From assembly GCA_022572185.1 (NCBI GenBank), contig JACZWL010000010.1, positions 1-64,000 of the forward strand: DNA of 64,000 nucleotides, read 5' to 3'. The stretch comes from Pseudomonadota bacterium (GTDB lineage Bacteria; Pseudomonadota; Gammaproteobacteria; Steroidobacterales; Woeseiaceae). This document shows, one piece after another, positions 46,811 through 52,646 of this stretch. A model generated the notes under the pieces. That model made no database searches. It was not told the origin of the DNA and saw nothing but the letters and a program-made list of their open reading frames with translations. The position numbers were made by a program, and so were the translations under genes. Numbering within the stretch: the stretch's first letter is position 1; each line of letters starts with the position of its first letter.

Positions 46811-46847
46811 CCCATCCCTTCCCGATATCTGATTCTTGGAGGCATGC

Positions 46848-49001
46848 ATGTATCCTGCTAATTCCCGACCGTTCAAGCCGATATTGCTGACAGCGTTTGT
46901 TGCTCTGCTGCTTGCGTGCTCTTCTGGCGACCATGCCGAAAATGCGCTTACCTATCCCCATGCGATGCGCTCGGATCAGGTAGACGACTACTTCGGCGTC
47001 CTGGTTGCGGATCCTTACCGGTGGATGGAGGACATAGAAAGCGAAGCCGTAGGAAAATGGATCAAAGCCGAAAACGAGGTTTCGTTTCCCTATCTGGCTG
47101 CGATACCGGCACGCGAGGCGCTCATCAAGCGATTCCGGGAATTATGGGACTACGAGAAATTCGGTTTGCCGAGGCATGAGGCGGGACGTTACTTTTACTG
47201 GCATAACGATGGCTTACAGGACCAGAGTATCTTGTACGTATCAGACTCGCTGGGAGGAGAAGCTCGAGTACTCATCGATCCGAACGAGTTCAGAGAAGAC
47301 GCGACGAATTCGGTTGGCAGCTACGAGGTCAGCCACGATGGCAGCAAGATTGCCTACAGCGTTTCAGAAGGCGGCAGCGACTGGAAAGACTGGCGGGTTC
47401 GCAATGTGGAAAGCGGCGAGGACTATCCGGACGTCATTACAGGCACCAAGTTCACGCCAGTCTCCTGGTCGATCGACGACAAGGGGTATTACTACAGCCG
47501 TTACCCGATGGTCGAGAACGCTGCGGCCGACGACAATCAGCAGGTTGCCATTTATTACCACAGGCTCGGTGAATCGCAGGACGAAGATGAGCTGATTTAC
47601 GAGATTACGGATCACGCAACGAGGAATCCGTATGGCACTGTCACAGACGACGGCAGATTTCTCGTTATACACGTGTCCGACGGATTCGACTCGAACGGTA
47701 TCTATTATATGCCGCTCGACGATCAGGAGCGGACAGTAAGCAGGCTGTTCGACGAGTGGGACGCCATTTACAGCATTGTTGATACCGATGGCGATACGTT
47801 TTATGTGCATACCAACAAGAACACGCCGCACTGGCAACTTGTTGCGGTCGATATCACCAGGAACAACATAGATGCGTGGCAGGTTCTGATACCACCGATC
47901 GATTCCGTGCTCGATACAGTAAGTTCGGTAGGTGAGCGTTTCTTCGCTCATTACCTGAATGATGCCACTTCGAAAATCGAGAGATACACGCGTGATGGCG
48001 ATTACCTTGGGGAAGTGATACTGCCGGGGCTTGGCACGGTGTCCGGTTTCTCCGGCGAGCGGCAAGATGACGAGACATTCTTCTCTTTTTCATCATATGT
48101 ATCGCCGCCACGCATTTTTCGGTATTCGCTCAAGGACGATACGAGCGAGATTTACAAGGTCGCCGAAATCGCTGCCGATGTGGATGCGTATGAAACCACG
48201 CAGGTCTTCTACAGCAGTAAGGATGGCACGCTGGTGCCGATGTTCATCACTCACCGCAAAGACATAGTGCTGGACGGGACAAATCCAACGCTGCTTTACG
48301 GTTACGGTGGGTTCAATGTCTCGCAGACGCCGCGTTACAGCACGAAGTTTATGGTCTGGCTGGAAACGGGCGGTGTCGTCGCGGTCGCAAACCTTCGTGG
48401 CGGAGGCGAGTACGGCGAAACCTGGCACAAAGCGGGAACAAGGGAACACAAGCAAAACGTATTCGACGATTTCATAGCAGCCGCTGAATGGTTGATCGAA
48501 AATAAATACACGTCGAAATCGAAACTGGCAATCAATGGCGGCAGTAACGGTGGATTGCTGGTGGGCGCGTCAATGACGCAACGACCCGACCTATTTGCCG
48601 CCGCAATATCAAATGTTGGGGTGCTCGACATGTTGCGTTATCACACGACAAGTGCGAACGCCCGAGCCTGGTCCAGCGACTATGGCTTGAGCGAGAACGA
48701 ATCGGATTTCAGGGCCCAGTTCGCCTACTCGCCGTTGCACAATGTCGAGAAAGGGGCTTGTTATCCGCCCACGCTGATTACGACGGGCGATCGGGACAAT
48801 CGCGTGATGCCGTGGCACAGCTTCAAATTCGCGGCCGAAATGCAGCAGGCCCAGGGTTGCACCAACCCGATTCTCATTCGCATCGAGACCAGGGCGGGAC
48901 ATGGTTCCGGGAAACCCACCTGGATGCGCATCGAGCAAGCTGCGGATGAATGGGCGTTCCTCGTCGAGCAACTGGATATCGAGCTACCCGATTTCGACTG
49001 A
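46848..49001 (+). CDS. Prolyl oligopeptidase family serine peptidase (S9A), lipoprotein
   Basis: The 717-residue protein has a lipobox-like signal (FVALLLACSSGD), a seven-bladed beta-propeller (about residues 60-430) and an alpha/beta hydrolase domain. The catalytic Ser is in NGGSNGGLLVG (about residue 565), the Asp in TGDRDNRVMP and the His in RAGHGSGKP. Members cut short peptides after Pro. The GGAGG ribosome site at 46837-46841 supports the ATG at 46848. Lipid anchoring suggests action in the periplasm or on the cell surface. Confidence 0.93.
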   Translation: MYPANSRPFKPILLTAFVALLLACSSGDHAENALTYPHAMRSDQVDDYFGVLVADPYRWMEDIESEAVGKWIKAENEVSFPYLAAIPAREALIKRFRELWDYEKFGLPRHEAGRYFYWHNDGLQDQSILYVSDSLGGEARVLIDPNEFREDATNSVGSYEVSHDGSKIAYSVSEGGSDWKDWRVRNVESGEDYPDVITGTKFTPVSWSIDDKGYYYSRYPMVENAAADDNQQVAIYYHRLGESQDEDELIYEITDHATRNPYGTVTDDGRFLVIHVSDGFDSNGIYYMPLDDQERTVSRLFDEWDAIYSIVDTDGDTFYVHTNKNTPHWQLVAVDITRNNIDAWQVLIPPIDSVLDTVSSVGERFFAHYLNDATSKIERYTRDGDYLGEVILPGLGTVSGFSGERQDDETFFSFSSYVSPPRIFRYSLKDDTSEIYKVAEIAADVDAYETTQVFYSSKDGTLVPMFITHRKDIVLDGTNPTLLYGYGGFNVSQTPRYSTKFMVWLETGGVVAVANLRGGGEYGETWHKAGTREHKQNVFDDFIAAAEWLIENKYTSKSKLAINGGSNGGLLVGASMTQRPDLFAAAISNVGVLDMLRYHTTSANARAWSSDYGLSENESDFRAQFAYSPLHNVEKGACYPPTLITTGDRDNRVMPWHSFKFAAEMQQAQGCTNPILIRIETRAGHGSGKPTWMRIEQAADEWAFLVEQLDIELPDFD

Positions 49002-49025: not shown

Positions 49026-51845
49026 CTATTCTCGATTTAAGACGTGTTTGAGTTCGACCAGCGCGTTCTGCCAGCGATCGTCGGACAATCGATAATATTC
49101 TTCCCAGTCTTCGCTCGCAGGAATGCCTGCAACGCTGATCGTCATCAGTGTTTTCTCGTCACGCTCGCGCAGGAAGAAGTCCACAGTGATCGGTCCGCTT
49201 GGCAATGGATCTTCGCCTTCGCGCGGCGCGATGACGAGGCGCATGCGTCGCGGCGGCATGAAAACATCGATGCGACCTGCCGATTCGGATCCGTCGCGAA
49301 GCGACAACGAAAATGGTCGACCGATCTGCGGCGTGAATTCGCCATCAAGCGCCAGCCATTTCTTCAGGTATTCGATGTCGGTGATCGCCGTCCACACGTC
49401 GTTGATTTTGCCAGCCACCTCGAGCTCGGCCCTGTGACTGCGCGTTATGCTTTCCGGTTGAGGCGCTGCTTTGGCCTTCGGCGGTTCCTCCTTCTTGGCA
49501 GCCGGCGCCACTTCCTCGCGCGTATCCGGATAGGAAATAACATGGAGATCGCGCTGCGGGAAAGGAATCGTAACGTTCGCGTCTCTGAACGCCTGATCGA
49601 TCGAGAAATTCAGGTCGCTTGTCACCTGGAATCGTCGTTCGATTCTCTGGATCCGGACGCGAAGTTCGAAATCCAGTGAGCTGTCGCCGAAGCCCATAAA
49701 CAATGCGCGTGGTTCGGGTGCGCGGCCGTCCGTGATGACTTCGGGGTGGGCGAGTGCGATCGTCTCGAGTATTTCGCGGACTTTTTCAATATCGGATCCA
49801 TATGCGACGCCGACGTTGACCCTCAGCCGTCCATAGGTATCGCGCAATACCCAGTTTGTTACGCGCCCGGAAACCAGTTCGGAATTCGGCACAAGCACGT
49901 TTTGGTTATCGAGTGTCTCGATTTCTGTCGCACGTATTCGGATGCTGCGGACGAATCCCTCCACTTCGCCGACCGTCACGAAGTCACCGGCGCGTATCGG
50001 ACGCTCAAACAGCAAGATAAGTCCCGAAACGAAGTTATTCGCTATCTCCTGCATGCCGAAGCCTATCCCCACGGCGAGGGCGGCACTGATGAAAGCGATG
50101 CCAGTGAGATCCACGCCCGCCATGCTGAGGCCGATTATGACGGCGAAAATGAATCCGACGTAACCAAAGAGGGTCATTAATGCGTCACGGGCGCCGCGTT
50201 CCAAAACGATGTGCCGCAGCCAGCGGCGGTTGATCCATCCCTTGATCCAGCCGATCGCGACCATGAAAAACGCGAACACGAGGATGCCGCCGATAATATC
50301 CATTGGCACGAGGCGAATACTGCCAACGACGCCGCCCATTACGATGAGATCGAAAAGACGATTGAGCGTCGTGCCGGACTCGTCCCAGACATAGATCACA
50401 TAGACAACGAAACTCAGCCAGAGTACGAGATCGGCGATCAGCTGCATGAAGCCGAGGCCGGTTTGCGACGCTTTTTCCGTTACGCCCAAATTTGCTCGTA
50501 GCCTGGACGCGCTGGGCGTGTCCTGACGCAACAAGTACTCAAACGCCATCAAAACGAGCCAAAGAAGAATCCAGAGGAGGAACAACGCCAGTGCCGTTCG
50601 TGTGACTCCGTGTATCAGGTATCCGGCAAGATTCTGGTAGCCGAGAAAAAGTGCTCCAACGCCGGCGATCAATGCGAGTGAGCCGAGATAGCGAATGAGC
50701 CGGAAGCGGCCTTGAAGACCCGGTATTCGACCAAGATAAGCAAGCACGGAATACAGGGTCGCGGCAACGACAAAAATCATGGTTGCCCGGCCACTCACAT
50801 TCGGGTCGACCATGCGAATGGTCAACCAGCGTGTACCGAGGACGACGAAACTCGCCACGAGTGCAAGCGCGAGGAATCGCAAGCGCAGACGCAGCGGGCG
50901 GACATGGTCCGGTATCAGTCCCTTGACCTGGGCAGACGGCGACAACGGCCCTGTCGCCCAGTCAATGATTACGCAGGCGACACCATAAAGCAGGATCGCC
51001 ATCGCAATCCGAACCACTGCAAATTCGAACGAAGCGGCCTCAAGCGTCAACATGAGTAAAGCAACAAGTGCCATACCTTCGAGCAGCAGTGGGGAGTATT
51101 GGGCCAGCGGTTTCGGGAACAGGTATTTCATTTGCGGTTCGGCATCACGGCCGCCGCTCGCGAGGAACCAGCGATTGAACCGATGGCGAATGAAGAGACC
51201 GATCGCTGCGGTGAGGCTGCCCACAAGTATCAGCAGCCAGAACAAATTGACCGGTGTCACGTCCTCGATCAGTTCGAGGTCGACCGATTTCCTGAGACGC
51301 GCAGGCCAGGTCAGCAAACGTGACGGCATCTCGCGGATCAATGTAACGATCGATCGGCCCCGGCTTGACAAGTATTGCTGAGAGAGCTCCGACTGCTTGT
51401 TCGTAATTCTATCGAGCAGTGAACTTGCGTAGTCCTTGACGCTGTTGCACTGCGTTTGCCGGGCAATTGTGTCATCGAGAAGCTGCCTGATCTCGTTACG
51501 CTGATCCATAACGGCGGGTGCTACATCGGCATCTACCTCTTTAAGCGGTTCGAAACGTGCTTCAAGTCGTGCGCGCTCTTCGGTTGCTTCCAATTGGCAT
51601 TTTTCAGCCGCGGCATCGACCGCAACCACCCTTGCCCGGGCGGCAGCGAGGAAAGGCGGTTCTACTTGTTCGTCATCGAGGTGACTGGCGAGCTGGTCGA
51701 GTTCGGCACCGACGCTGATGGGATCGAATACATCTACCTCCTGAGCCTGCGCAGGCAGACCGAAGAGGAAAAGGAAGATTGGGAAAATGCAGAGAAAGGA
51801 ACTCCTTGGATCGAGACGTCGGGCCAGTGCTTTCGCCTGTATCAT
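49026..51845 (-). CDS. MscS-family mechanosensitive channel fused to an AHSA1/SRPBCC domain
   Basis: The 939-residue protein has a signal peptide (FLFLFGLPAQAQ), a periplasmic coiled-coil region, about ten membrane helices, and an MscS pore and beta domain (LAVGIGFGMQEIANNF, SGLILLFERPIRAGDFV, ILVPNSELVSGRVTNW-like NVLVPNSELVSGRVTNW). Large MscS relatives (MscK/MscM) gate on tension and release solutes. The last ~140 residues are unusual: after a Pro/Lys-rich linker comes SRAELEVAGKINDVWTAITD, GRPFSLSLRDG and SDDRWQNALVELKHVL, an AHSA1/START-like lipid- or ligand-binding fold on the cytoplasmic side. The start at 51845 (MIQAKALARR) is chosen over 51947. Confidence 0.88.
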   Translation of the reverse strand: MIQAKALARRLDPRSSFLCIFPIFLFLFGLPAQAQEVDVFDPISVGAELDQLASHLDDEQVEPPFLAAARARVVAVDAAAEKCQLEATEERARLEARFEPLKEVDADVAPAVMDQRNEIRQLLDDTIARQTQCNSVKDYASSLLDRITNKQSELSQQYLSSRGRSIVTLIREMPSRLLTWPARLRKSVDLELIEDVTPVNLFWLLILVGSLTAAIGLFIRHRFNRWFLASGGRDAEPQMKYLFPKPLAQYSPLLLEGMALVALLMLTLEAASFEFAVVRIAMAILLYGVACVIIDWATGPLSPSAQVKGLIPDHVRPLRLRLRFLALALVASFVVLGTRWLTIRMVDPNVSGRATMIFVVAATLYSVLAYLGRIPGLQGRFRLIRYLGSLALIAGVGALFLGYQNLAGYLIHGVTRTALALFLLWILLWLVLMAFEYLLRQDTPSASRLRANLGVTEKASQTGLGFMQLIADLVLWLSFVVYVIYVWDESGTTLNRLFDLIVMGGVVGSIRLVPMDIIGGILVFAFFMVAIGWIKGWINRRWLRHIVLERGARDALMTLFGYVGFIFAVIIGLSMAGVDLTGIAFISAALAVGIGFGMQEIANNFVSGLILLFERPIRAGDFVTVGEVEGFVRSIRIRATEIETLDNQNVLVPNSELVSGRVTNWVLRDTYGRLRVNVGVAYGSDIEKVREILETIALAHPEVITDGRAPEPRALFMGFGDSSLDFELRVRIQRIERRFQVTSDLNFSIDQAFRDANVTIPFPQRDLHVISYPDTREEVAPAAKKEEPPKAKAAPQPESITRSHRAELEVAGKINDVWTAITDIEYLKKWLALDGEFTPQIGRPFSLSLRDGSESAGRIDVFMPPRRMRLVIAPREGEDPLPSGPITVDFFLRERDEKTLMTISVAGIPASEDWEEYYRLSDDRWQNALVELKHVLNRE

Positions 51846-51918
51846 CTTTGGAATATTCGTTCCGGAGCCACGCTCGCTGCAGTATACAGCGAAGCGATGA
51901 CGATAAAAAATGGAGGGA

Positions 51919-51944
51919 CGAGGGCATTCATGTGAATGCCCTCG
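51919..51944 (-). terminator. Terminator of the Bax-inhibitor gene
   Basis: Perfect 12-bp arms (CGAGGGCATTCA and its complement) with a 2-nt centre sit 13 bp after the minus-strand stop at 51957. A T-run (TTTTTT) follows on the minus strand about 10 nt later. The very short loop means the hairpin opens at its tip, but a terminator role is likely. Confidence 0.65.
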
Positions 51945-51956
51945 CATCAGATCTTG

Positions 51957-52646
51957 CTAGTGGCGGCTCATAAAGAGGCGCAGGATATACCAGAACATCA
52001 TCGCAATGGAGGCGAACAACTGCATCGATGCTGCGACGTACTTATCCTGGGGATAGTGGTGCAGGATGTTGGAAGTATCGTAGAGAACCGCTGCGCCCGC
52101 AAAGCCGATCATCGCAACCGAAAACCAGGTACCGAGTTCAAACCCGAAAAGCAGACTGCCGCCGATCGCCGCCAAAGCCAGAAAAAACAACCAGACCATC
52201 ATGCCTCGCAGGAACGAGAAGTCCTTTCGCGTAATCATCACGGTCGCAATCAGTCCGACACAGCCCAAAACTGTTACGCCCGCCGCGCTGTCGATTATGC
52301 CGGGTGCCCTGATACTCGCAATGAACAGCATTGGCGCGAATATCAATGACTCCAGTACAATAAATGCCGCGAAAGCCGCGTATTGCGCATTCTTCGATTC
52401 GACACGGTGTGCAACATGCGTTGCACCCCAGCCAGCCAGAATAAATACACCCAGCACCATCCACCAATTGTTGAGCATTGGAATGGCAATGCGTTCCGCT
52501 ATCCCGGACTGGAAGAAGTAGACTTCGATCGCCGCGAACGCGAGAATTGCGCCGACAACGTGGGCATAGCACTTCCAGATAAAGTCGGAGCGATCTTCGA
52601 CGGATGCGTCTGAGACCGGTGCCAGATAATTGACGTTGTCGTTCAT
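51957..52646 (-). CDS. Bax inhibitor-1/YccA family membrane protein
   Basis: The 229-residue protein has seven predicted membrane helices and the family pattern: EVYFFQSGIAERIAIPML, ESLIFAPMLFIAS, AAGVTVLGCVGLIATVMITR, and the final ALFASIAMMFWYILRLF-type segment with the two Asp of the pH-sensitive di-aspartyl latch (YDTSNIL; DKYVAAS). Bacterial members such as YccA modulate FtsH, and BsYetJ is a calcium leak channel; the role here is open. It stands alone with its own terminator. Confidence 0.92.
   Translation of the reverse strand: MNDNVNYLAPVSDASVEDRSDFIWKCYAHVVGAILAFAAIEVYFFQSGIAERIAIPMLNNWWMVLGVFILAGWGATHVAHRVESKNAQYAAFAAFIVLESLIFAPMLFIASIRAPGIIDSAAGVTVLGCVGLIATVMITRKDFSFLRGMMVWLFFLALAAIGGSLLFGFELGTWFSVAMIGFAGAAVLYDTSNILHHYPQDKYVAASMQLFASIAMMFWYILRLFMSRH

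Follow-up and report, generated by a model that had tools for sequence, protein, structure and literature searches.

Channels of the MscS family are thought to act mainly as tension valves, and little is known about how they are tuned from inside the cell. One group within the MscS superfamily, the bCNG channels, has a cyclic-nucleotide-binding domain after the core. The helix-grip (SRPBCC) fold, to which AHSA1-type domains belong, is best known for its central cavity; for many AHSA1-type domains no ligand is known, some bind proteins, and Aha1 binds Hsp90. The superfamily is known for terminal modules, with subfamilies that carry terminal ligand-binding domains, bCNG channels among them (PMC4560390). 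In MscK, Trp914 forms the upper gate (PMC9653487).

Here we describe a gene from a Woeseiaceae bacterium, located in a window of 64,000 nucleotides (contig JACZWL010000010.1, positions 1 to 64,000), whose product joins an MscK-like channel to a C-terminal AHSA1/SRPBCC domain. Like the bCNG channels, this protein is an MscS-type channel with a module of ligand-binding type added terminally. Unlike them, it carries an AHSA1/SRPBCC domain, a candidate ligand-binding module only, on an MscK-like instead of a short channel, and Pfam found no cyclic-nucleotide-binding domain after the MscS core, just AHSA1. MscS channels with terminal modules are known; what is new here is the AHSA1 module, and its presence on an MscK-like member of a superfamily that gains modules. 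A literature search, with most subscription papers outside its reach, found no report of an MscS-AHSA1 fusion and, in agreement with the first-pass annotation, no characterised example in the papers that could be searched. The features of the locus are as follows, with residues numbered in the 973-codon frame that opens at the ATG at 51947.

49026..51845 (-), MscK-like channel-AHSA1 fusion gene; open frame, with a signal-peptide-like segment after the 51845 start
49029..49454 (-), AHSA1/SRPBCC domain, residues 832-973 (~142 residues; Pfam match 848-970), by Pfam, AlphaFold and Foldseek
49455..49526 (-), variable Lys/Pro/Glu-rich linker, residues ~808-831; low identity, low pLDDT
49569..49823 (-), MS_channel_3rd (cytoplasmic alpha/beta domain), residues 709-793; Pfam E 4.9e-19
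49848..50045 (-), MS_channel_2nd (beta domain), residues 635-700; Pfam E 2.9e-22
50043..51263 (-), multi-pass membrane region with ~10-11 hydrophobic segments, residues ~229-635, by hydropathy; best solved relative MscK
51264..51740 (-), predicted periplasmic region after the signal peptide, residues ~70-228, by hydropathy
51905..51945 (-), terminator-like hairpin, a 12-bp perfect stem followed by TTTTTT; fold z -5.9
51957..52646 (-), gene for a BI-1 family (Bax1-I) membrane protein; Pfam E 8.6e-25

Architecture of the fusion protein

The minus-strand open reading frame at 49026-51947 holds 973 codons from its first ATG. Translation likely starts at codon 35, the ATG at 51845 directly ahead of the signal-peptide-like segment, which gives a protein of ~939 aa. 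The first ATG lies at the foot of the terminator-like hairpin, a position that suggests it is not the start, and in many relatives a possible start is found ~105-125 bases past the BI-1 stop codon. The hairpin, missed by a simple scan and brought out by folding, sits between the BI-1 gene and the channel gene and is probably a terminator. A frameshift joining two genes, which the first-pass annotation had raised as one way in which its reading could fail, has a negligible chance of explaining the fusion, as has a read-through or an assembly join: the gene is a single intact frame with no internal stop codon, and the fusion recurs in ~20 separately assembled genomes at 47-67% identity and is common to 22 near-complete Woeseiaceae copies.

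The channel part has the pore helix and beta domain of the MscS superfamily, with PF00924 and PF21082 far over their cut-offs, and its PDB matches include both MscS and MscK structures. Its best solved relative is MscK (KefA) of E. coli (PDB 7uw5/7ux1), which matches residues 507-813 with an E-value of 3.3e-54. As in MscK, a multi-pass membrane region lies ahead of the pore domain and is followed by the same MscS-type beta and alpha/beta domains. The two differ at MscK Trp914, with which a Phe aligns here, and in the periplasmic part, which from the signal peptide to the first membrane segment measures ~160 aa here, as against the large gating-ring domain of ~500 aa in MscK; no Pfam or PDB match was found for this region. 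MscK also has no AHSA1 tail, and the NCBIfam MscK equivalog model scores the fusion protein at 253.7 bits, below its curated cut-off of 991. The earlier description of the channel as MscS-type holds for its Pfam domains and needs amending as to type, the channel being of the large, MscK-like kind and not a minimal MscS.

The channel cage ends at the motif IPFPQRDLH and gives way to a linker that is nearly free to change, with a mean identity of 17% across relatives and a varying length. In a longer AlphaFold model (434 residues of channel plus tail), residues 792-833 have a pLDDT <50 and most of the tail one of 70-90; the channel part is of low confidence (pLDDT 55, pTM 0.36), and the arrangement of the domains is not readable from this model. 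A fold search with it repeats the MscK/MscS and AHSA1 matches only.

The tail beyond the linker is an AHSA1/SRPBCC domain, as had been proposed, with the motifs VWTAITD and W-xx-ALVELK in place and with boundaries that match the 49026-49450 first assigned to it. Against a gathering cut-off of 22.1 bits, PF08327 (AHSA1) scores 38.5 bits with the full protein (E 1.6e-9) and 43-44 bits, up to 43.9, with the tail searched alone; the match spans model positions 4-124 of 125, and all 19 tails in the alignment used for folding match the family. The Polyketide_cyc2/lipid-transport family is a weak second match in three of these 19. AlphaFold, given the tail with 18 relatives, returned a helix-grip fold (pLDDT 90.5, pTM 0.84), and the best solved Foldseek match to this model is Mll2253 (3q63; TM 0.83, 18% identity). 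Further matches are other AHSA1/SRPBCC proteins, Aha1 C-terminal domains (1x53, 8z3h, 2m89) and ligand-binding plant proteins with this fold, such as PYL1, which is a receptor for abscisic acid, and a protein that binds cytokinin. Residues invariant among the tails are a TR at the domain start and GIPxxE. Mll2253, RHE_CH02687 (2lak) and the Colwellia Aha1-domain protein (2m89) have the Pfam family and fold in common with the tail, and differ from it in being soluble single-domain proteins with no channel fused. The eukaryotic Hsp90 co-chaperone Aha1 (AHSA1) has the tail's helix-grip fold in its C-terminal domain (1x53, 8z3h); its N-terminal domain, part of the co-chaperone architecture, is absent from the fusion protein, where Pfam found no match to it. 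We also considered the tail as part of the MscS C-terminal fold and rejected this, since the tail folds alone as a separate domain and orthologues without it end ahead of where it begins.

Distribution and origin of the tail

Among the 98 related genomes examined, the tail is present in every Woeseiaceae orthologue that is complete at its C-terminus; a contig end cuts one further copy (L020), and two partial copies with the C-terminal end preserved, L030 and another from G037, likewise extend into the tail. An order-wide search added three fused copies (G609, G621, G633), bringing the near-complete total in Woeseiaceae to 22, and in neither set did we find a Woeseiaceae orthologue that had lost the tail. 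Most genomes of genus g10 are without the whole gene, rather than without the tail alone. The tail is under purifying selection, judging from dN/dS values of ~0.04-0.23 in the pairs where these could be computed, and the pairwise distances between tails rise with those between channels (r = 0.91, p 0.0005), as vertical inheritance predicts. These comparisons of sequence show that the fused form is inherited vertically under purifying selection in Woeseiaceae.

Beyond this family the fusion appears to be rare. A scan of 84,980 species genomes with a GIPxxExW-type pattern, which reaches close relatives only, returned 20 loci, 19 of them fused or C-terminal fragments of the same kind and the other a lone Steroidobacteraceae gene. 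No further fusion came out of a profile search through 369 genomes of the class, and of the ~69 PF08327 matches in 185 class genomes only the window's lies in a frame >413 aa; these surveys would miss a distant SRPBCC domain that had joined another MscS channel independently. What looked like an 801-aa AHSA1 frame in genome G690 proved to be a lone AHSA1 gene with a long frame open by chance ahead of it.

Five other families of the order have orthologues (L022-L029, L031) of 38-44% identity, and these stop where the tail would be expected to start, no more than ~50 residues from the first residue of IPFPQRDLH. In the three tail-less loci whose flanks were read (L022, L025, L031) the channel gene is convergent with serS, as are the fused genes of L043, L046 and L049. 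Because position and sequence agree, we take the tail-less and fused genes to be orthologues, and the simplest history is therefore one gain near the base of Woeseiaceae; on these grounds the tail was probably gained once there. In a tree of the tails and their lone relatives the fused tails cluster and one origin is not rejected; long branches blur the attachment of the lone relatives. We hold the anatomy of the protein, together with a single origin of the fusion, with very high confidence. The existence of tail-less orthologues marks the tail as something added to a functioning channel; it suggests that the channel works without the tail and fits a regulatory add-on. In several relatives serS and the channel gene are direct convergent neighbours, whereas in the window they are separated by a gene for a prolyl oligopeptidase (Peptidase_S9; 46836-49001, +).

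In most Woeseiaceae loci the channel gene has the BI-1 gene as its immediate upstream neighbour, an arrangement absent from genus g5, whose genomes are small. One tail-less orthologue also has a BI-1 family gene upstream (L025:4064-4738). An operon with BI-1 is unlikely to be the reason for the tail, given this tail-less case and the terminator-like hairpin between the two genes.

The closest lone relatives of the tail are in Steroidobacteraceae (L051, L061-L068), and we looked there for a lone tail homologue beside a channel, in the manner of a Rosetta stone. No such pair was found. A homologue of the PF04020 (Phage_holin_4_2) membrane proteins is instead near in nine of the nine loci; this small membrane-protein gene is on the same strand as, and within ~2 kb of, the lone AHSA1 gene, and directly adjacent to it in ~6. 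The lone relatives near PF04020 genes and the channel fusion thus tie this AHSA1 branch to membrane proteins in two unrelated ways, and the nine loci are an independent hint that the branch to which the tail belongs may work at the membrane. The window's genome has a PF04020-like gene (L087:549-926) on the same contig, ~0.5 kb past the window end and ~12.6 kb from the channel; it has no tail-like neighbour, and another AHSA1 gene, separate and distant, lies at L087:1665-2102.

Possible functions of the tail

In MscS-type channels the chains exit through the beta-barrel at the base of the cage. A tag attached to the C-terminus of YnaI showed up as density 'beyond the beta-barrel' (PMC12375004). 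For these two reasons we expect the AHSA1 domains below the cage, and the first proposal, which put them in the cytoplasmic vestibule, is unlikely. The explanation that we favour, at a probability of roughly 0.4, is a tension-gated heptamer in which the tail is a ligand-binding modulator under the cage. The channel would form a heptamer whose MscS pore is opened by membrane tension, with seven AHSA1 domains hanging below the cytoplasmic cage on flexible linkers. The cytoplasmic cue that these domains would bind is most likely a small molecule, hydrophobic or amphipathic in character and held in the helix-grip cavity; we favour such a cue because the fold is best known for that cavity. Binding could alter the packing of the domains against the cage or against one another and so shift the tension threshold, recovery or inactivation; the tail would be a modulator, not an opener, and not the ligand gate put forward in the first-pass annotation. 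Ligand-dependent modulation as such is a tentative assignment. The cytoplasmic part barely changes on opening in MscK (PMC9653487) or in YnaI (PMC12375004), so an effect on the gate from a domain placed there is hard to explain, and a flexible linker transmits force poorly; both count against modulation.

The same flexible linker would suit a protein-docking module, in which the tail binds no small ligand and instead recruits a protein of the cytoplasm, an enzyme or a chaperone such as HtpG, which is kept at the channel in this way or reads the channel's state. We regard docking as unlikely, if still a serious rival: the fold search matched C-terminal domains of Aha1, Aha1-Hsp90 binding is a precedent within the family, and TR and GIPxxE are kept, but the Aha1 N-terminal domain is absent, nothing in our analysis ties standalone bacterial AHSA1 proteins to HtpG, and the only consistently adjacent partner candidate is BI-1, a family gene of which also adjoins a tail-less orthologue. 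The Hsp90-like partner offered in the first-pass annotation likewise draws on the family name and is weakened by the missing N-terminal domain. Quite unlikely, in our judgement, is a structural accessory that conveys no signal, whether it aids heptamer assembly or stability or partly covers the opening at the cage base and filters solutes. An MscS/MscK heptamer would place seven tails at the exit of the cage, tail and channel evolve together, and dimers are possible among AHSA1 relatives (2m89, a dimer of Aha1); set against this, tail-less orthologues in other families show that assembly is possible without the tail, and the linker varies freely in length and sequence. It is improbable that the channel serves just to anchor in the membrane a domain that does separate work, such as handling lipids or hydrophobic compounds, and that the fusion matters little for gating. 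The lone Steroidobacteraceae relatives near a PF04020 gene mean that the domain may do something at the membrane independently of the channel, and the weak second match to Polyketide_cyc2/lipid-transport points the same way, but a seven-subunit channel is an unusual anchor, and no Woeseiaceae orthologue was found to have shed the domain.

Implications for channel tuning

The modulator reading has a more specific and rather doubtful form, a two-input valve responding to tension and a metabolite, in which a START/AHSA1-type receptor domain would bind a lipid, a quinone or another hydrophobic cytoplasmic molecule and set the tension response, and which would be confined to one marine family. If this were true, the natural tail-less orthologues would serve as controls. 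More broadly, the retention of the domain in every complete Woeseiaceae copy found suggests that some factor inside the cell adjusts or uses the channel. One domain of ligand-binding type was probably added once, and orthologues, several at the same genomic place, are still without it; a single tethered domain, added or removed, would be a direct test of whether and how a cytoplasmic module resets a mechanosensitive gate. A function for the tail would also give a role to one branch of the large, mostly unexplained bacterial AHSA1 family.
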